This document shows positions 1 to 8,594 of a stretch of DNA of 64,000 bases, piece after piece (within the stretch, counting starts at the first letter, position 1; every line of letters starts with the position of its first letter). Both the position numbers and the translations under genes were made by a program. Source of the stretch: Arenibacter sp. F26102 (GTDB lineage Bacteria > Bacteroidota > Bacteroidia > Flavobacteriales > Flavobacteriaceae); contig NZ_JALKBC010000001.1 of NCBI RefSeq assembly GCF_023015865.1, forward strand, positions 1-64,000. Reading direction: 5' to 3'. Under the pieces are notes generated by a model. The model had not been told where the DNA came from and searched no databases. It worked only from the letters and a program-made list of their open reading frames with translations.

Positions 1-669
1 AAGAAAAGGGCAACGGTCAAGGAAATCACCCTGGATATGGCGAACTCGATGAAGACCATCGCCAAGAAGTGCTTCCCTAAGGCAATACAGGTCACCGATC
101 GCTTCCACGTACAGAAGCTGGCACTGGAAGCCCTTCAGGATATCCGGATCAAGCACAGATGGGACGCCATAGACCTAGAGAACGAACAGATAAAACGGGC
201 AAGGGCAAAGAACGGGACATTCGTCCCAAAAGAATTCAGCAATGGGGACACCAGAAAACAACTCTTGGCCAGAAGTAGGTACCTCCTTTATAAATCGCCC
301 AACAATTGGACCCGGAACCAATCCGAGAGAAGTAAAATATTGTTCGATCAATATCCCGATATAAAAATTGCCTTTGACCTGGTCCAGGGGCTCAGAAACA
401 TATTCAATACGGCAACCTCTATACAAACGGCATATACCAAGCTGGCACATTGGTACAAGGACGTGGAAAACACAGGCTTCAGGGCCTTCAATACCATTGC
501 CAACACAATATCCCTCAACTATAGGTCTATCCTCAATTATTTTATAAACAGGAGCACCAATGCTTCGGCAGAATCATTCAATGCAAAAATAAAAGCCTTT
601 AGGGCTCAATTCAGAGGAGTCAAAAACATAGAATTCTTCCTTTATAGATTAACTACAATATTTGCATAA
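1..669 (+). CDS. ISL3-family-like DDE transposase, 5' part missing
   Basis: The C-terminal part of an IS transposase that would cut and rejoin the ends of its own element. The frame is open at base 1, so the N-terminal DNA-binding region lies outside the window. Visible residues include a first Asp (ITLDMA, visible residue 12), a second Asp in TDRFHVQK (33) and a Glu in ASAESFNAK (about 191). These give a complete DDE triad in the spacing and wording typical of ISL3-type transposases of Bacteroidota. About 222 residues are visible. It lies outside the integrative element that follows, because the left att repeat comes after its stop. Its base composition is richer in G+C than the element next to it. 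The family name is recalled from motif wording, not from a search. Confidence 0.8.
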   Translation, partial: KKRATVKEITLDMANSMKTIAKKCFPKAIQVTDRFHVQKLALEALQDIRIKHRWDAIDLENEQIKRARAKNGTFVPKEFSNGDTRKQLLARSRYLLYKSPNNWTRNQSERSKILFDQYPDIKIAFDLVQGLRNIFNTATSIQTAYTKLAHWYKDVENTGFRAFNTIANTISLNYRSILNYFINRSTNASAESFNAKIKAFRAQFRGVKNIEFFLYRLTTIFA

Positions 670-902: not shown

Positions 903-932
903 AAATTATTCGTCCCCTTATTCGTCCCCTAA
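903..932. repeat. Left arm-type repeats (two CGTCCCCT copies)
   Basis: Two tandem copies of CGTCCCCT, spaced 12 bp start to start, preceded by AAATTAT. Nearly the same block recurs at 8236-8264, just inside the right end and in the same orientation. Paired repeats just inside both ends match the position of integrase arm-binding sites. The integrase keeps an N-terminal arm-binding-type region, which fits. The binding itself is inferred. Confidence 0.6.
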
Positions 933-958: not shown

Positions 959-2194
959 ATGGCAAAAGCGAAATTTATACTCAAAGAACCTTCTTCAAAA
1001 ATAGAAACATTAGTCTATATGTTTTACAATTATCAATACAAGAGGTTTAAATATTCGACAGGGGAAAAGATAAATCCAAAGTTTTGGAATCCTAAAGCGC
1101 AAAGAGCAAAAGAGTCTAAACAATTCATAGAATATCCCGAATTTAATTCCCGTTTGGATAAATTAGAAAATGGCATGAATAATGCCTTTCGAAGATTACT
1201 TAATGACGGGATACAGCCTAATAACGAAATCCTAAAAAAGGCTCTTGAAGCTGAATTATCAGGTAACATTCTACAGGGTAATAAAAAGACCTTTTTTGAT
1301 TTTGTTGAGGGCTACATAGAAGAGAGCAAATTAAACAAGAAATCAGGTACAATTAAAGTCTACAATACCATTTTCAAGTATCTAAAAGAATATGCTATAA
1401 AAATAAACAAGAGTGTAGATTTTGAATCTATCACATTGGAGTTTTATAATCAGTATACAGCATATTTGTCAGTTGATTCCAATCTTTCCGCCAACACCGT
1501 TGGCAAGCATATAAAGACAATTAAATCATTTATGAACGAAGCTACTGAAAGAGGTTATAATCAAAACCTAGAATTCAAGAAGCGAAAATTTAAAACCTTA
1601 AGGGAAGAAGCGGACACTATTTATTTAAATATTGAAGAATTAAAGCGAATGGAAAAAATAAATTTATCTTCTAGCCCTAGATTAGAAAAAGTTAGGGATT
1701 TATTTCTAATTGGCTGTTATACTGGCTTGCGTTTTTCTGATTTTACACAGATTAAACCCGAAAATATTGTTTCAGATAAATCTATGCTCCAAATTAGAAC
1801 ACAAAAGACTGGAGAACGAGTTTCAATTCCACTTCACCAAACTGTAAAAAACATCCTGAAAAAATACAATAATAATCTTCCTAGTGCGTATACTAATCAG
1901 GTTATGAACAAATATCTTAAAGACGTCGCTAGTTTAGCACAATTAAAGGATGAAGTAGAAACAACCATTACCAAAGGTGGTGTTATGAAAAAAGAAGCTG
2001 TAAAAAAGTTCAACTTAGTTACAACTCATACAGCGCGGAGAAGTTTTGCTACCAATTTATTTTTGGCAGATATTCCCGCAATTTCCATCATGAAGATTAC
2101 AGGACATAAAACAGAACGTTCCTTTATGCAATATATCCGGGTAACTCAAGAACAAAACGCAGATAAATTATTAAACCATCCATTTTTCAACTAA
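959..2194 (+). CDS. Tyrosine-type site-specific integrase
   Basis: A tyrosine recombinase, 411 residues, that would integrate and excise the surrounding element. The N-terminal ~90 residues look like the arm-DNA-binding domain of Bacteroidota integrases, including an NPKFWNPKAQRAK segment. A SAM-like core-binding region follows (about 105-200), then the catalytic domain. Catalytic residues visible: Arg in TGLRFSDF (about 257), His-x-x-Arg in THTARRSFATN (about 356), His in GHKTERSFMQY (about 382) and the nucleophile Tyr (about 393). The length is normal for the family. It is the first gene inside attL, and its TAA overlaps the ATG of the next ORF by one base. Its partner for excision is probably the HTH protein at 2961. 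Confidence 0.93.
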   Translation: MAKAKFILKEPSSKIETLVYMFYNYQYKRFKYSTGEKINPKFWNPKAQRAKESKQFIEYPEFNSRLDKLENGMNNAFRRLLNDGIQPNNEILKKALEAELSGNILQGNKKTFFDFVEGYIEESKLNKKSGTIKVYNTIFKYLKEYAIKINKSVDFESITLEFYNQYTAYLSVDSNLSANTVGKHIKTIKSFMNEATERGYNQNLEFKKRKFKTLREEADTIYLNIEELKRMEKINLSSSPRLEKVRDLFLIGCYTGLRFSDFTQIKPENIVSDKSMLQIRTQKTGERVSIPLHQTVKNILKKYNNNLPSAYTNQVMNKYLKDVASLAQLKDEVETTITKGGVMKKEAVKKFNLVTTHTARRSFATNLFLADIPAISIMKITGHKTERSFMQYIRVTQEQNADKLLNHPFFN

Positions 2195-3571: not shown

Positions 3572-4408
3572 ATGATAGTAAAGAATACATACGGAACAAG
3601 CGTAGCTTTTTCCACTAGGCAATTTGGGGTAGTTCCCAAGGATGAATTTTCAGGCTCTGCGCTTCAACGCAAAAAAAAAGAACCCGAAAAGGATAAGCCC
3701 AGGCCCAAGCCAAAAAAGGATGATGGCAAAATAAAACTGCGGTCCCTCTCTAGGCGGTCCAAGCAAAAAATCAGGAAGAAAATAACCTGCTTTGCACGAT
3801 GCTATAAACGATTAAGTTTTGTTACCCTCACCTTTCTGAACAAGGTAGAGGACAAACAAGCGGTCGATGTCCTTAGAAAATTCTTGGACAACGTTAAAAA
3901 ACGTAGTACCGATTTTCAATATGTGTGGGTAGCGGAAAGACAGACCAAAAACGCAGAATTCGAGGGCAATGTTCATTTCCATATCATCACCAATAAATAT
4001 TGGAAAATAGATAAATGGTGGAACTACTGGCTGGACTTGCAAAAAAAGAACGGGATAGAACCTAGGGAAAAAGAATTCAAGCCCTCTAGCGCATTTGATG
4101 TAAAACAATTAAATTCCAGTAACATCAGGTCAATCGCATCTTACGTAACAAAGTACGTTACAAAGAACAATGCAAAATTTAAATGTCAGGTCTGGAACTG
4201 TTCTAGGCGCGTTTCTGAACTGTATACAGACTTTTACACTACTACGGAGTTTACGGACCAATTTAAGCGCCTAAAAGCCGTAATAAAGGAGACTGTGATT
4301 ATTGGGGAAAGAAACCAACCCGCCCTAAACATAAAAATGATTGACCTGAACAGACAAACTTTGCCCCTTTATAAAAGATTGGACGATAAAAACAAAGCAA
4401 TAAAATAA
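3572..4408 (+). CDS. HUH rolling-circle replication initiator (Rep)
   Basis: A 278-residue protein with the motifs of HUH endonucleases that nick one strand to start rolling-circle replication. Motif 1 is FVTLTFLNK (about residues 84-92). The metal-binding HUH motif is HFHIITN (about 134-140). The catalytic Tyr/Lys segment is ASYVTKYVTKN (about 189-199), with YxxxY/K spacing. The N-terminus is highly basic, rich in KKK and KPKP runs, which suits DNA binding. Motif 3 recalls plasmid and small ssDNA-phage Rep proteins. Its presence beside an integrase implies that the excised element can replicate as a circle. The next ORF begins 4 nt downstream. Confidence 0.82.
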   Translation: MIVKNTYGTSVAFSTRQFGVVPKDEFSGSALQRKKKEPEKDKPRPKPKKDDGKIKLRSLSRRSKQKIRKKITCFARCYKRLSFVTLTFLNKVEDKQAVDVLRKFLDNVKKRSTDFQYVWVAERQTKNAEFEGNVHFHIITNKYWKIDKWWNYWLDLQKKNGIEPREKEFKPSSAFDVKQLNSSNIRSIASYVTKYVTKNNAKFKCQVWNCSRRVSELYTDFYTTTEFTDQFKRLKAVIKETVIIGERNQPALNIKMIDLNRQTLPLYKRLDDKNKAIK

Positions 4409-4412
4409 CACT

Positions 4413-4805
4413 ATGAAACATATAAATTTTACAATAAAAAACGAATTCGGAGAACCAACAAGCTACAAAGCCAATAGCAAAATTATTAAAGGGCTTCATA
4501 TAACTACGGACTCCTCAAAAGTTCAGCATAATTGCGACAACCTGAAAATTATAGTGAGTAGGCCAAATTTAAAATTAGGGATATTTGATAACGTTAAAGT
4601 TACCGTAATAGGGGAAATTTGCATACTTACAATATTAGAATTGGGCAATACGCAAAGTCAATTTTTAATTCAAAAAGACTTAGATATAAACAAATTAAAA
4701 TGGTCGGTTTCTAAAAAACTAAATGGCTATTATCATAACGCTATTGAAAAAGCGTATGTAACTATGATGATATTTAATTTTAATAACCGTTTAACTTCAA
4801 GTTAA
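4413..4805 (+). CDS. Unknown protein downstream of Rep
   Basis: A 130-residue protein starting 4 nt after the Rep stop, so almost certainly in the same transcript. It is predicted beta-rich, with no signal peptide, membrane segment or recognised motif. A 140-bp gap with its own promoter-like element separates it from the cargo operon. It could belong to the replication module. Confidence 0.6.
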   Translation: MKHINFTIKNEFGEPTSYKANSKIIKGLHITTDSSKVQHNCDNLKIIVSRPNLKLGIFDNVKVTVIGEICILTILELGNTQSQFLIQKDLDINKLKWSVSKKLNGYYHNAIEKAYVTMMIFNFNNRLTSS

Positions 4806-4921
4806 ATAAGTTGTGGTTTCAAGATATCTATGGCATCATGAAACTTTAAGTTGCTTTTGGAAAAGTAAGTTTTCTGCATCAGCATACCCTTGGTTGTTAT
4901 AATACTTTATGAAATATTGTA

Positions 4922-4929
4922 TATGTTTG
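4922..4929 (+). promoter_or_regulatory. -7 promoter element for the cargo operon
   Basis: TATGTTTG fits the TAnnTTTG consensus and lies 16 nt before the ATG of the ParB-like gene. A TTG is present further upstream, but at longer than usual spacing. It would give the three-gene cargo its own transcript, separate from the replication genes. Confidence 0.4.
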
Positions 4930-4945
4930 TATAAACTCGTTTGTA

Positions 4946-6064
4946 ATGAATAATATTGACGCAATTCCTTTAAATAAATTACTTTTAGATAAGGAAAACC
5001 CTAGGATTCATCAAAACATATCAAACCACATTACTCAAGTTAGCCTTGCTGAATTCATATATGATAATTTTGGTATAAGTGACCTGAAAGATTCAATCCT
5101 AAAAAACGGCTACTTCCCTGTTGAGCCAATGGTCGCGATTCCGGCTAATGATGGTGAAGGAAATTTTATTGTTGTAGAAGGAAATCGAAGGCTAACCACA
5201 ATAAAAATATTGTGTGATGAAGAATACAGGAATAAGTGTATTTCACAGGGAAGAAGAGAAGATTATACAGCCTCAGCAAAACTAATCAAAAGCCTTCAAG
5301 CAATTCCCGTCGTTGTAGCTGCGAATAGGGCTAGTGTTACGGCATATTTAGGAGTTAGGCATTTAGGAGGTGTTGTTCGCTGGGAGCCTCTTGCGCAATC
5401 AAAATACGTTTATAAACAGATTTTATTAAAAAAAGAAAGTATTGTAAACGGTACAGTAACAGATGCCATTTCAGCATTTGTTGACGAAACAAATAATAAA
5501 AGGTCAGATGTCTTAAACCATTTTTACAAATATTGCATATATAAGGACATGCAAGAAATTATAGAGGCTGACCCAAGAATAGAGGCTTCAATTGACAATA
5601 AGTTTTCACTTCTTGAAGTGGCACTTGGCAAAACAGGAAGAGGACCTGTCGCAGATTATATAGGTATTTCTAGCTATGCAAGATTAGACCCCGAAGACTA
5701 CGAGAATATCATACCCGAGAATAAAGAAAATGAAATTAAAAACATCATAATTTGGGTTTTTTCTGTAAATCCACCAATAAAAGAAAGTAGGGAAATCAAT
5801 AAATATCTTAAACCTATTTTAAGTAGTATTACTTCTACAAAGGCTTTTGAATCAGGTGAGGATAAAGACACCGCCCTTTTACTGTCCGACTCTTATGATA
5901 ATATCGTTAGGAACTCAAGTTCTGCCGTGCACAAATCTCTGACTCATATCCAACAAAATTGGTCAAAAACTCAATCTGACAATAGAGAAGATTTACTTAG
6001 AATATATAAAGCCAACGTTATTGATAAAGTAGAGAGCACTAATATAGCTGTTGATTACAAATAG
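4946..6064 (+). CDS. ParB/Srx-fold domain protein, cargo gene 1
   Basis: A 372-residue protein. Residues 1-110 look like a ParB N-terminal domain: IPLNKLLLDKENPRIH, a segment with DLKDSILKNGYFPVEPMVA, then VVEGNRRLTTIKIL, which is the place of the ParB GERR motif. A second conserved-looking stretch is VRHLGGVVRWEPLAQSKYVY (about 132-151). The rest is helical and unrecognised. ParB-fold proteins bind or hydrolyse CTP or act as nucleases, and appear both in partition and in defence loci. With no ParA here, partition is unlikely. It starts the operon that continues into the possible nuclease and the methyltransferase, so a sensor, loader or nuclease role in a restriction-type system is inferred. 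Confidence 0.75.
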   Translation: MNNIDAIPLNKLLLDKENPRIHQNISNHITQVSLAEFIYDNFGISDLKDSILKNGYFPVEPMVAIPANDGEGNFIVVEGNRRLTTIKILCDEEYRNKCISQGRREDYTASAKLIKSLQAIPVVVAANRASVTAYLGVRHLGGVVRWEPLAQSKYVYKQILLKKESIVNGTVTDAISAFVDETNNKRSDVLNHFYKYCIYKDMQEIIEADPRIEASIDNKFSLLEVALGKTGRGPVADYIGISSYARLDPEDYENIIPENKENEIKNIIIWVFSVNPPIKESREINKYLKPILSSITSTKAFESGEDKDTALLLSDSYDNIVRNSSSAVHKSLTHIQQNWSKTQSDNREDLLRIYKANVIDKVESTNIAVDYK

Positions 6065-6071
6065 ATATTGT

Positions 6072-6917
6072 ATGGATAGTCCTATTGATGTTATAGAAAA
6101 CAGAATATCACTCCTAGATTCAATTATTGTTTTTGAAGATATAATTGATGAATATTTGAGTGAAACGTATACGGATGAAGAAATACAAGAAATGGATATT
6201 TTGAGCTTTAGAAAGCGTCAATTAGATTCTCTTCAATATAGATTCGCTGAATTATACAATCTAAATGTTTTAAGTCCTCAAAACGGATTTAGTATTTTAC
6301 AAGTAAAGGATAATGTAGACCTGAATATAAAGAAATATATACACAGGTTTTTATCTTACAAATCGGTAACTGGCGGTAGTAATGCAAATGCAGATGGTTC
6401 AGCTGAACTATTTGAAGATATTTCTGCAAACGCTGTGAAGAATTTTTTAGGTGATGGGTCGAAAGTAATTATGGTTGGTGAAGGAAGATCAAATCTTACC
6501 ATAGAGCGATTAAATGAAATCTCCAATCTAATTGTTGAAAAGCCAGGCGTTTATCACAATCTTCCAGGTAGGGCAAAGGATGATGGGGTTGATTTCATTG
6601 TATACAAGCCTCTAGATATAAGGAATACAGGCAATTTAATAATTTTAGGGCAAGCTTGTGTTGGAAAGCATTTCGAGGAGAAAAAAGTAATACATCAAAG
6701 GTGGCAAGATGAGTATATTACTTTTGCCATTAAGCCTCCAACGACGTTATTAAGCGTGGTTTATTTTTTAGAATCTGATAAATTGAGGTCTGTGCATTCA
6801 GAATTTGGAAATTCAATAGTTTTTGATAGAGGACGCATTTTGAAGTTTTATGATATCTCGGATGACCTACTAAATACTCGGATAATAGATTTTGTAATAG
6901 CAAATATAAATGACTGA
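6072..6917 (+). CDS. Possible PD-(D/E)XK-type nuclease, cargo gene 2
   Basis: A 281-residue protein. The ATG at 6072, 7 nt after the previous stop, is preferred over a TTG at 6051 that overlaps the ParB-like gene. The C-terminal half contains AELFEDISANAVKNFLG (about 118-134), then DDGVDFIVYKP and, after an IRNTGNLI strand, LGQACVGKHFEEKK. An Asp-containing strand followed by a strand ending in Gln and then Lys resembles degenerate PD-(D/E)XK cores, in which Gln can replace the acidic residue. This is inference and no close homologue is named. Its stop overlaps the methyltransferase start by 8 nt, the arrangement expected of a restriction enzyme and its protecting methylase. Confidence 0.6.
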   Translation: MDSPIDVIENRISLLDSIIVFEDIIDEYLSETYTDEEIQEMDILSFRKRQLDSLQYRFAELYNLNVLSPQNGFSILQVKDNVDLNIKKYIHRFLSYKSVTGGSNANADGSAELFEDISANAVKNFLGDGSKVIMVGEGRSNLTIERLNEISNLIVEKPGVYHNLPGRAKDDGVDFIVYKPLDIRNTGNLIILGQACVGKHFEEKKVIHQRWQDEYITFAIKPPTTLLSVVYFLESDKLRSVHSEFGNSIVFDRGRILKFYDISDDLLNTRIIDFVIANIND

Positions 6918-8232
6918 AAAAAAGTTGAAGTTTATTGACCTATTTGCGGGGATTGGTGCTTTTCACATTTCCCTGGAAAAACTTGGACATAAGTGTGTCT
7001 TTGCATCAGAATTAAGTTATGATTTAAGGTCTTTATATAAAGAAAATTATGGTATTGATTGCCAGGGTGACATAACTAAAATAAGTATTGAAAGCATCCC
7101 TAATCATGACGTATTGTGTGCTGGATTTCCGTGCCAGACATTTTCTAAAGCAGGGAATCAAAATGGAATGAAAGAGGCTAGAGGTAAACTTTTTGATGAA
7201 ATATTAAAAATTTTAAGCTACCACAAACCTAGATATTTTATTTTAGAAAATGTTAGAAATTTATTAATGCATGATTCTGGTAATACTTGGAATTATATAT
7301 CACATAAATTAGACGAATTAGGATATTTTTTTGATAAAAGAATTCTTTCACCACATCTAATAAATATTCCGCAACACAGGGAACGTATCTTTATTGTTGG
7401 AAGTCTGAAATCAATTGATATTGAGGAAATGCAATGGCCTCCAAAAGAAGATTATGTAAATTCTGTAGATTCAATATTGAATAATGACGAAATTGACTCA
7501 AATTTAGAGTTAGAAAAAATAAATGTATTAAATACATGGGGTGAGTTTTTAAATGAACTGCCTAAAGATGTTGAGCCATATAGACCTTTATGGTCTATGG
7601 AATTTGGTGCAAACTACCCCTTAGACGTTGAATGGGAATCTTTGCCATTAAATGAATGGCATAAATATAAAGGAATGTATGGGTATCCACTAAAAAGTTG
7701 CGATAGCTTGGAACTAGTGTTTGAAAAATTGCCCAACTATGTTAAAACTCAAAAAGGTATTCCCCCTACTTGGAAACAAAAATTTATTTACAATAACAGA
7801 ACATTCTATAAAGAGAATAAAAAATTTATTTCTAAAACAACTTTAAATAAGATTAAAGATTTTAAATTAGAAAGTTGGAAAAAATTCGAATGGAATTGCC
7901 CAGGCACCCAACGTATATTCTATGATAAACTAATTCAATTTAGAGGTTCTGGTGTTAGAATTAAGAAGAATAATTATCTGCCATCATTAGTAACTGTTTC
8001 AACTCAAATTCCAATTATCGGAAAATATATGAGATATATTCTTCCAGAAGAAGGAGCTAGAGTTCAATCACTTCCTGAACAAATAAAATTACCAGAAACT
8101 AAAACTGCCTCTTTTCGAGTTTTAGGTAATATGGTCAATGTTGAATTGGTTTATAGAGTTGCTTTTCAATTATTAAAGAACTACAATAAAGTACCTACAG
8201 AGGAAACAATTGATATATTTGAAGAAGTATAA
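6910..8232 (+). CDS. DNA (cytosine-5) methyltransferase, cargo gene 3
   Basis: A 440-residue C5-cytosine methyltransferase that would transfer a methyl group from S-adenosylmethionine to DNA. Motif I is FIDLFAGIGAFHISLE (8-23), motif IV GFPCQTFSKAG with the catalytic Cys (about 76), motif VI LENVRNL (about 114), motif VIII QHRERIFIVG (about 157) and motif X FRVLGNMVNVELVYRVA near the C-terminus. The ~200 residues between VIII and the C-terminal motifs form a large target-recognition region with no recognised specificity. The gene begins within the last 8 nt of the putative nuclease gene and is the last gene of the element. The coding sequence is AT-rich like the rest of the element. Confidence 0.93.
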   Translation: MTEKKLKFIDLFAGIGAFHISLEKLGHKCVFASELSYDLRSLYKENYGIDCQGDITKISIESIPNHDVLCAGFPCQTFSKAGNQNGMKEARGKLFDEILKILSYHKPRYFILENVRNLLMHDSGNTWNYISHKLDELGYFFDKRILSPHLINIPQHRERIFIVGSLKSIDIEEMQWPPKEDYVNSVDSILNNDEIDSNLELEKINVLNTWGEFLNELPKDVEPYRPLWSMEFGANYPLDVEWESLPLNEWHKYKGMYGYPLKSCDSLELVFEKLPNYVKTQKGIPPTWKQKFIYNNRTFYKENKKFISKTTLNKIKDFKLESWKKFEWNCPGTQRIFYDKLIQFRGSGVRIKKNNYLPSLVTVSTQIPIIGKYMRYILPEEGARVQSLPEQIKLPETKTASFRVLGNMVNVELVYRVAFQLLKNYNKVPTEETIDIFEEV

Positions 8233-8235
8233 AAT

Positions 8236-8264
8236 AAAATTATCGTCCCCTAATTCGTCCCCTA
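8236..8264. repeat. Right arm-type repeats (two CGTCCCCT copies)
   Basis: Two tandem CGTCCCCT copies in the same orientation as at 903-932, again preceded by AAATTAT and again close inside the element end. They start 3 bp after the methyltransferase stop. Their match to the left block is nearly perfect over 29 bases. Confidence 0.6.
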
Positions 8265-8273
8265 AAAAGAAAA

Positions 8274-8304
8274 AAGCCCCGTAAACTTAGTGTTTACAGG
8301 GCTT
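8274..8304 (-). terminator. Terminator of the tRNA gene
   Basis: A 13-bp stem with one mismatch (AAGCCCTGTAAAC / GTTTACGGGGCTT on the minus strand), then TTTTTTCTTTTT. It lies 15 nt beyond the 3' end of the tRNA, inside the element. The element therefore seems to bring a replacement terminator for the tRNA it interrupts. Read on the plus strand it could also stop cargo transcription. Confidence 0.7.
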
Positions 8305-8318
8305 ATCAAGCGTTTTCC

Positions 8319-8332
8319 GTGGTCCCACCTGG
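8319..8332. repeat. attR: att repeat within the tRNA 3' end
   Basis: The second copy of GTGGTCCCACCTGG. It spans the last 13 nt of the tRNA plus one base beyond, so integration leaves an intact tRNA on this side. The matching copy is at 776-789. Confidence 0.8.
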
Positions 8333-8393
8333 GCTCGAACCAGGGACCACCTGATTATGAGTCAGGTGCTCTAACCAACTGAGCTATAGGACC
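8320..8393 (-). tRNA. tRNA with CAT anticodon (Met, or Ile2)
   Basis: The minus strand folds as a cloverleaf: acceptor GGTCCTA / TGGGACC plus discriminator A, D-arm AGCTCAGTTGGTTAGAGC, anticodon arm CCTGACTCATAATCAGG with loop CTCATAA, and T-arm CCTGGTTCGAGCCCAGG. CCA is not encoded. CAT serves elongator Met, or Ile when the C is modified to lysidine, and this cannot be settled by reading. It is the attachment site of the adjacent element. Confidence 0.93.
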
Positions 8394-8395
8394 GT

Positions 8396-8442
8396 TTTAG
8401 TACTCTAACCTCCCGATAACTATCGGGATGAGCTATAGGACC
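8396..8442 (-). pseudogene. tRNA 5' fragment interrupted by a palindrome
   Basis: On the minus strand this reads GGTCCTATAGCTCA, then an 18-bp palindrome, then GGTTAGAGTAC. The two parts match the 5' acceptor and D-arm of the neighbouring CAT tRNA with one base change, GTT of the D-loop being replaced by the palindrome. There is no anticodon or T-arm, so it cannot be a working tRNA. It looks like a partial tandem copy that was hit by a small repeat. Confidence 0.65.
8411..8428. repeat. 18-bp palindrome in the tRNA fragment
   Basis: TCCCGATAACTATCGGGA: 8-bp perfect arms around a 2-base centre. Short palindromes of the CCCGATA...TATCGGG type are common extragenic repeats in Bacteroidota (recalled, not searched). 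Here it sits exactly inside the D-loop sequence of the tRNA fragment. Confidence 0.6.
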
Positions 8443-8594
8443 ATTTCCTTTTTTGCTTCTGCCTTCAAATACGCTTATCTGAAAAAGCAATCGGGAACCG
8501 CAAATTGCGGATGCAATATTACTACTTATTTTCCAACACTGCAAACAAAATTACAAGCTTAATTGGGCTTAATTATACACTACCTCCGCAAATA

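Follow-up and report, generated by a model that had tools for sequence, protein, structure and literature searches.

The theme of a ParB-type protein next to a DNA methylase is not wholly new, since it is met in PD-lambda-5 and in a 2013 survey whose accessible text lists a HEPN family ‘in operon with a ParB nuclease and DNA methylase genes’ (PMC3710099); the PADLOC candidate PDC-M38A shares the ParB half. PD-lambda-5 comes from the work of Vassallo et al. (2022), who in the accessible part of their paper call it a compacted prophage version of an RM+Abi system, that is, restriction-modification plus abortive infection (PMC9519451). A trio of genes from Arenibacter sp. F26102 takes up this theme and adds a third component. 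It spans positions 4946-8232 of the window, by which we mean the whole 64,000-nucleotide (nt) stretch of DNA that was analysed, and its genes share one direction. How does it relate to the systems already described? Its members are as follows.

4946..6064, plus strand: ParB-like protein of 372 amino acids (aa), with a ParB/Srx N domain (LxxDxxNPR, EGNRR), a helix-turn-helix (HTH) domain and a helical C-terminus (Foldseek, PADLOC, phrog_3694).
6072..6917, plus strand: gene 2, a predicted Mrr-like PD-(D/E)XK nuclease of 281 aa (conservation, profile comparison, a structural model, weak fold matches).
6910..8232, plus strand: C5-cytosine DNA methyltransferase of 440 aa (PF00145, TIGR00675).

We think it likely, judging from sequence, that the trio is a three-gene restriction-modification-like anti-invader system, in which the ParB-like protein and the nuclease would restrict and the methylase would protect. 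The trio, its conservation, the co-inheritance of the methylase with rare class swaps, the ParB fold and the nuclease-type motif are computed directly. The tight packing described in the original prediction is confirmed by the reading frame coordinates, with a 7-nt gap between the ParB-like gene and gene 2 and an 8-nt overlap between gene 2 and the methyltransferase gene; the start of gene 2 was taken as the ATG at 6072, and an alternative TTG at 6051 would give 288 aa. The third gene, as predicted, encodes a C5 methyltransferase (Pfam PF00145, E 4.7e-68; NCBIfam TIGR00675, E 2.7e-65). The locus had also been put forward as a candidate undescribed defence system; this reading is supported, and none of the three outcomes named as speaking against it turned up. 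In open-licence papers (supplements excluded) neither a description of a ParB-like gene with a gene 2-type nuclease and a methylase nor a defence assay of the trio was found; the ParB-methylase theme itself is partly known. The trio resembles Type II restriction-modification in its methylase and separate putative PD-(D/E)XK nuclease, which are inherited together, but it adds a conserved ParB-like gene, its nuclease belongs to no known family, and the class of the methylase swaps on one ParB-nuclease lineage.

How widely does the trio occur? Among 198 near relatives, 2 have a relative of gene 2; so do 7 of 395 genomes of the phylum and, with an eight-row alignment, 9 of 296 genomes, the genome of the window being counted each time. 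When the window protein alone was used to scan viral contigs, plasmids and phages, no homologue came up, because this protein is divergent (18-26% identical to other members). A four-row gene 2 alignment (A4) gave 21 loci in genome contigs, whose titles name Bacteroidota, Balneolales, Chloroflexota, Binatota, Acidobacteria/Bryobacterales, Nitrospira, Planctomycetota, Gemmatimonadota, Deltaproteobacteria and Bradyrhizobium (L042 being a duplicate of L010, which was read in its place). Of these loci, 18 have a ParB gene no more than 150 nt from gene 2; as for the others, L048 has a shortened ParB gene 224 nt off, L044 is cut by the contig and L049 has none. A methylase accompanies 17 of the 21 (12 of the D12 and 5 of the PF01555 type); apart from these, L056 holds a contig-edge fragment, and L044, L048 and L049 showed none. 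Recurrence beyond close relatives, on which the original prediction turned, is thus seen in several phyla as well as in the viral contigs described next, and we judge from sequence that the trio is a real and recurrent unit, probably of three parts, with a ParB-type component.

Viral contigs were scanned with a ParB alignment (A6), and the best 80 of 121 confirmed loci were kept. Gene 2 lies directly downstream of the ParB gene in 77 of these 80, with a median spacing of -4 nt; the remaining three (L113, L146, L177) end at the contig edge. Because the A6 rows were drawn from loci with gene 2 and the best 80 of 121 were kept (6 of the 80 contigs being already known through gene 2), this figure says that close relatives keep the trio, and it is no census of ParB relatives. 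All 77 untruncated viral loci have a methyltransferase (57 C5, 19 D12 and one of N4/N6 type), a raw count over a 1.2 kb range, uncorrected for methylases near random viral genes, in which the L171 methylase is a 99-aa piece at a contig end. It stands within 77 nt of gene 2 in 73 of the 77, just upstream of the ParB gene in L117, L134 and L157, and 863 nt off in L119. Many contigs are near copies, and clustering at 80% gene 2 identity reduces the 97 complete trios from viral and cellular sources to 68 clusters; incomplete trios, duplicate loci (removed by hand) and the Pedobacter trio L010/L042 were left out beforehand. On a phage contig from human faeces (L041 1020-9423), two convergent ParB-gene 2 pairs share the locus with one C5 methylase gene.

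Does the ParB-like gene also keep unrelated partners, as the original prediction feared? The viral loci speak for a fixed partnership, but one cellular exception was found. Nine places in the genomes of the phylum score at least 150 bits for the ParB model, and eight have gene 2 adjoining (one of them interrupted, G400 contig 52). The ninth, in G461 (L185 7240-9390), is a ParB-like gene followed by an Eco57I-type methylase, with no gene 2. This place weighs against a fixed three-gene system, and so do L038, L039, L048 and L049, near which no methylase was detected, L049 being also the locus without ParB; L009 and L044, cut on one side by a contig end, belong on the same side. There are 14 lower-scoring ParB places, of which nine were scanned: PADLOC calls seven of these near-full-length PD-Lambda-5_A and an eighth partial, and one is L091/L187.

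A related trio also occurs in Escherichia coli: of 5426 complete genomes, 37 carry 80% or more of the viral-contig trio L018, the matches listed being about 71% identical in DNA. One copy whose surroundings were examined sits in a P2-like prophage, with the replication endonuclease gene on one side and the portal gene on the other. This P2 region is a hotspot of anti-phage systems according to the accessible text of Rousset et al. (PMC9122126), which mentions 169 genetic systems at the locus; the present trio may be among them. Elsewhere, the neighbours of some cellular loci include Wadjet JetA (L056), a GmrSD_N protein (L013), a full PD-lambda-5_A (L010) and an MzaD-like protein (L039).

What is the place of the methylase in the trio? 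In a combined ParB and gene 2 tree of the 68 clusters its class changes four times, where the least possible number is two and shuffled classes average 25.9 (0 of 200 as low). The tree was made with a quick method, the window sits in it as a long branch of unsure place, and the Pedobacter trio is in neither the tree nor the correlations. ParB and gene 2 distances are correlated with r 0.95-0.97 (0 of 2000 permutations), and ParB and methylase distances with 0.47 in 36 C5 clusters (L171 excluded) and 0.78 in 24 D12 clusters (again 0 of 2000). Given the few class changes and the correlated distances, the methylase is an inherited partner that is now and then swapped for one of another chemistry. 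The pattern fits a protecting methylase, which a partition system would not need.

Is gene 2 a nuclease? The original prediction saw in it a core resembling a degenerate PD-(D/E)XK nuclease. Motif conservation and the profile match of a subfamily give this moderate support, but the model is of middling confidence, the fold matches are weak and no family hit was obtained. On balance we hold it to be likely a PD-(D/E)XK nuclease, a fold deduced from motif and model. The landmark residues are E115, D170, D174, Q194, the lysines after Q194 and D252-R253-x-R255. D174, Q194 and R253 are invariant in all 68 clusters (69 of 69 once the Pedobacter trio was added afterwards), and D170 is present in 66. 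A lysine follows Q194 at Q+2 in 11 clusters and, in 56 of the 57 that remain, at Q+9..11, so that one of the two places is filled in 67 of 68. The idea that the two positions exclude each other was rejected, as L117 has both and L167 neither. The motif looks like a D...QxK site whose lysine is able to sit on the following helix; catalytic residues do migrate within the PD-(D/E)XK superfamily.

A possible link to Mrr emerges from profile comparison. A 20-member viral-contig subfamily of gene 2 carries GDxGxD, and its GDGGID...Q motif is the likeness to Mrr_cat (PF04471), two of the Mrr proteins having the GDGGID form; no scanned gene 2 protein, however, reaches the Pfam model. Compared by hhalign with five Mrr_cat proteins, the subfamily scores 73% (E 3.1e-5, motif in register) and the whole set of 68 clusters 26% (E 7e-4), where methylase and ParB controls give E 0.14 or worse for the subfamily and 0.10 or worse over the subfamily and all 68 together; these E-values are per single comparison. 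The AlphaFold2 model shows an alpha-beta-beta-beta-alpha order in which D174 precedes one strand and Q194 comes after the following one; as a prediction this fits the PD-(D/E)XK core. The best Foldseek matches among solved structures are BstEII (0.016) and MspJI (0.041), with Card1 and SdaI lower among many unrelated matches, and several matches in BFVD have nuclease names (best E 0.0016). The protein matches phrog_14650 (E 2.3e-10).

A good deal counts against a nuclease, and against an Mrr-like one in particular. E115 is replaced by Q or A in 16 of the 68 clusters. The 20-member subfamily was picked after its motif had been noticed; the 48 clusters outside it score only 12% (E 0.0025) against the same Mrr set, the first 24-row alignment scored 0.7%, and neither a set of five weaker Mrr_cat proteins nor a protein compared singly gave a match at the motif. 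The pLDDT of the model is only 65.6, no Foldseek match reaches E 0.001 or lower, and the best two matches in the Protein Data Bank (PDB) have TM-scores of about 0.3 and rmsd values of 8-11.5 A. Gene 2 is without a significant match in Pfam (best E 0.18), NCBIfam and PADLOC (11 gene 2 proteins), and no PDB sequence matches it.

In one locus, L187, the gene 2 slot beside a divergent ParB holds a Pfam Mrr_cat protein (E 1.1e-5), and a C5 methylase lies two genes further along; gene 2 matches this Mrr_cat protein weakly, at about 10%. The locus (L187 3605-8856) has a like layout with a recognised nuclease: the divergent ParB-like gene overlaps the Mrr_cat gene, and an AriA/PARIS-like ATPase and the C5 methylase follow.

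The first protein of the trio has the ParB-type N-terminal domain ascribed to it. Its model (pLDDT 83.4) aligns with KorB, ParB and Noc structures across some 270 columns (best E 9.1e-6, Foldseek probability 1.00), with 16 matches between E 9.1e-6 and 6.5e-4 and a TM-score for the best of 0.32 by query and 0.52 by target; the N domain also matches sulfiredoxin (Foldseek 0.013 and weaker), and the protein matches phrog_3694 (E 7.7e-52). L12, D15, N18, R20, E60, E78-G-N-R-R82, L83, H139 and W146 are invariant in all 68 clusters. The predicted fold of the N and HTH domains is thus shared with ParB, KorB and Noc, whereas the trio has no ParA partner, the protein has no PF02195 match (TIGR00180 reaches 13.3 bits against a cut-off of 58.45), and EGNRR replaces the canonical box II, which is GERR. 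The sole Pfam match is GmrSD_N (E 1.6e-4, 22.3 bits, below the 33.2 cut-off). Could such a protein bind a nucleoside triphosphate (NTP)? The box II arginine is required for NTP binding in other ParB-fold proteins according to the accessible text of a ParB survey (PMC12704722), which searched with PF02195, TIGR00180 and a KEGG model, and for this reason NTP binding by the ParB-like protein is a fair supposition.

The likeness to PD-lambda-5 resides in this protein. The PD-Lambda-5_A profile of PADLOC matches its residues 1-157 (E 8.5e-22), and against seven PADLOC-called PD-Lambda-5_A proteins the likeness runs through the HTH domain (hhalign 99.8%, E 3e-29, 207 columns). In addition, PD-lambda-5_B is a D12 methylase, and the D12 partners of some trio clades match it (L010, E 1e-110; L013). 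The C-terminal half of the A protein, however, is missing (the best match covers profile positions 1-161 of 466; PD-lambda-5_A profiles are 428-613 positions long, apart from one of 169), gene 2 is unrelated to PD-lambda-5_A (hhalign 0.1-0.4%), and the window methylase is C5 rather than D12. With the C-terminal half missing and gene 2 unrelated, the trio is a sister of PD-lambda-5 and no member of it, and library searches might mistake D12 trios for PD-lambda-5. In Pedobacter (L010 6472-10907), a D12 trio stands with a full PD-lambda-5_A on the opposite strand (E 3e-170), and one methylase could serve both. PDC-M38A is alike in the ParB half (window residues 41-172, E 6.1e-13; L010 residues 45-338) and is the best match of the divergent ParB of L187 (E 2.1e-46), but its profile of 715 positions is matched by none of the 11 gene 2 proteins scanned.

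This kinship bears on the first rival explanation, in which the trio does not clear the phage and instead kills the infected cell by broad DNA cutting, upon loss of methylation or triggering of the sensor. The homology with PD-lambda-5_A over the N and HTH domains, the D12 methylase that PD-lambda-5 shares with some trio clades and the RM+Abi wording of its authors in the accessible text (PMC9519451) all lend it some colour. Against it stand the missing C-terminal half and a gene 2 with no similarity to PD-lambda-5_A, and nothing in the sequence separates cell killing from clearance; we regard it as unlikely, though the strongest of the rivals.

Might the trio rather serve the element that carries it? 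As the original prediction stated, the trio is the cargo of an integrative element, which is about 7.4 kb long and has a tyrosine integrase, a replication protein and flanking direct repeats. Its features, and the tRNA gene near its right end, are these.

903..932, plus strand: left boundary repeat, att-like, with two CGTCCCC units (direct repeat with 8236-8265).
959..2194, plus strand: tyrosine recombinase (integrase; PF00589 E 1.8e-13, PF13102 E 2.1e-17).
3572..4408, plus strand: replication-associated protein of the element (PF23343 E 2.3e-13).
8236..8265, plus strand: right boundary repeat, att-like (direct repeat with 903-932).
8319..8393, minus strand: tRNA-Met adjoining the insertion site (ARAGORN).

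The boundary repeats are imperfect 30-nt direct repeats, 87% identical. Insertion within the tRNA-Met was rejected, since both repeats lie outside the tRNA gene. In the sister genome G003 this place is taken by the same integrase (95%), again set between similar repeats, with different cargo (L195 2085-12280): an EcoRI-type methylase, a pair of GmrSD_N proteins of which one has HNH, a DUF4062 protein and a 208-aa protein that gave no hit. Because the copy at the same site holds other cargo, the element can be said to carry exchangeable, defence-like cargo. The G003 cargo again brings together a ParB-fold protein, a nuclease and a methylase. Window 4413-4805, which separates the replication gene from the trio, encodes a 130-aa protein with no hit in Pfam, PADLOC or NCBIfam, and just left of the element (37-669) is a reading frame judged by eye only to be transposase-like. 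The claim that the trio has its own promoter-like element could not be confirmed. Sigma-70-like sites in 4700-8500 show no excess (17 found, 17.4 expected), and TAnnTTTG, which we take to be the Bacteroidetes -7 promoter consensus, occurs upstream of the trio at 4922-4929 and across the window at chance level (88 against 83.3 expected); the two-part pattern has five matches, none of them at 4922-4929.

The second rival explanation is that the ParB-like protein and the methylase regulate or partition the element, with gene 2 as an accessory DNA-binding protein and a function other than defence. A ParB fold with an HTH domain would suit such a role, and so would the carriers of the trio, which include an integrative element, plasmids and a prophage. 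But no ParA was found among the nine element proteins scanned, in line with the original prediction, and a partition (ParABS) reading was dropped for this reason; furthermore, ParB and gene 2 are kept from clade to clade alongside methylases of differing chemistry, something a partition role leaves unexplained, and gene 2 has invariant nuclease-type residues. We consider maintenance or epigenetic control of the element quite improbable.

Type IV systems offer the last comparison. To our knowledge GmrSD has no methylase of its own. It resembles the trio in that a ParB/Srx-fold protein works with a nuclease, but its HNH/DUF1524 nuclease with a DGQQR-type motif, as given in the accessible texts of PMC10952713 and PMC4619093, is not found in the trio. 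That gene 2 and the ParB-like protein attack foreign modified DNA, with the methylase as an independent passenger or anti-restriction gene, is suggested by the sole ParB-like Pfam match being to GmrSD_N, the ParB/Srx-fold domain of type IV enzymes, yet a methylase is present in all 77 untruncated viral loci and is co-inherited, and, as far as we know, type IV enzymes need none; we regard this reading as very unlikely.

How, then, would a restriction-modification-like system of three genes work? The methyltransferase would mark the DNA of the host. The ParB-like protein, with its ParB/Srx domain, probably NTP-binding, and its HTH domain, would recognise unmarked target DNA or be licensed by it, and would recruit or activate gene 2, the putative Mrr-type PD-(D/E)XK nuclease, which would cut the DNA. 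NTP binding, complex formation, DNA cutting, protection by methylation and phage defence are what we infer from the sequences. A bolder version, which we offer as a doubtful but attractive conjecture, would make the trio a distinct restriction-modification type. Here a ParB-family, NTP-driven clamp would discriminate self from non-self, loading at unmethylated sites, closing, sliding and handing the Mrr-like nuclease to the invader; exchangeable C5, N6-adenine and N4 methylases would rewrite the mark, and in PD-lambda-5 the same ParB-methylase platform would have been fitted with a second effector.

If the restriction-modification-like reading is true, a probable nuclease family that is nameless in the scanned libraries forms, with a ParB-type protein, the restriction half of a system spread across several phyla. 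A fold known for DNA segregation would then take the deciding role in a restriction system, and PD-lambda-5 would be explained as a relative with another effector. One ParB-nuclease lineage combined with three methylase chemistries makes a natural experiment, and the copy in a P2-like prophage of E. coli makes the system testable in laboratory E. coli.

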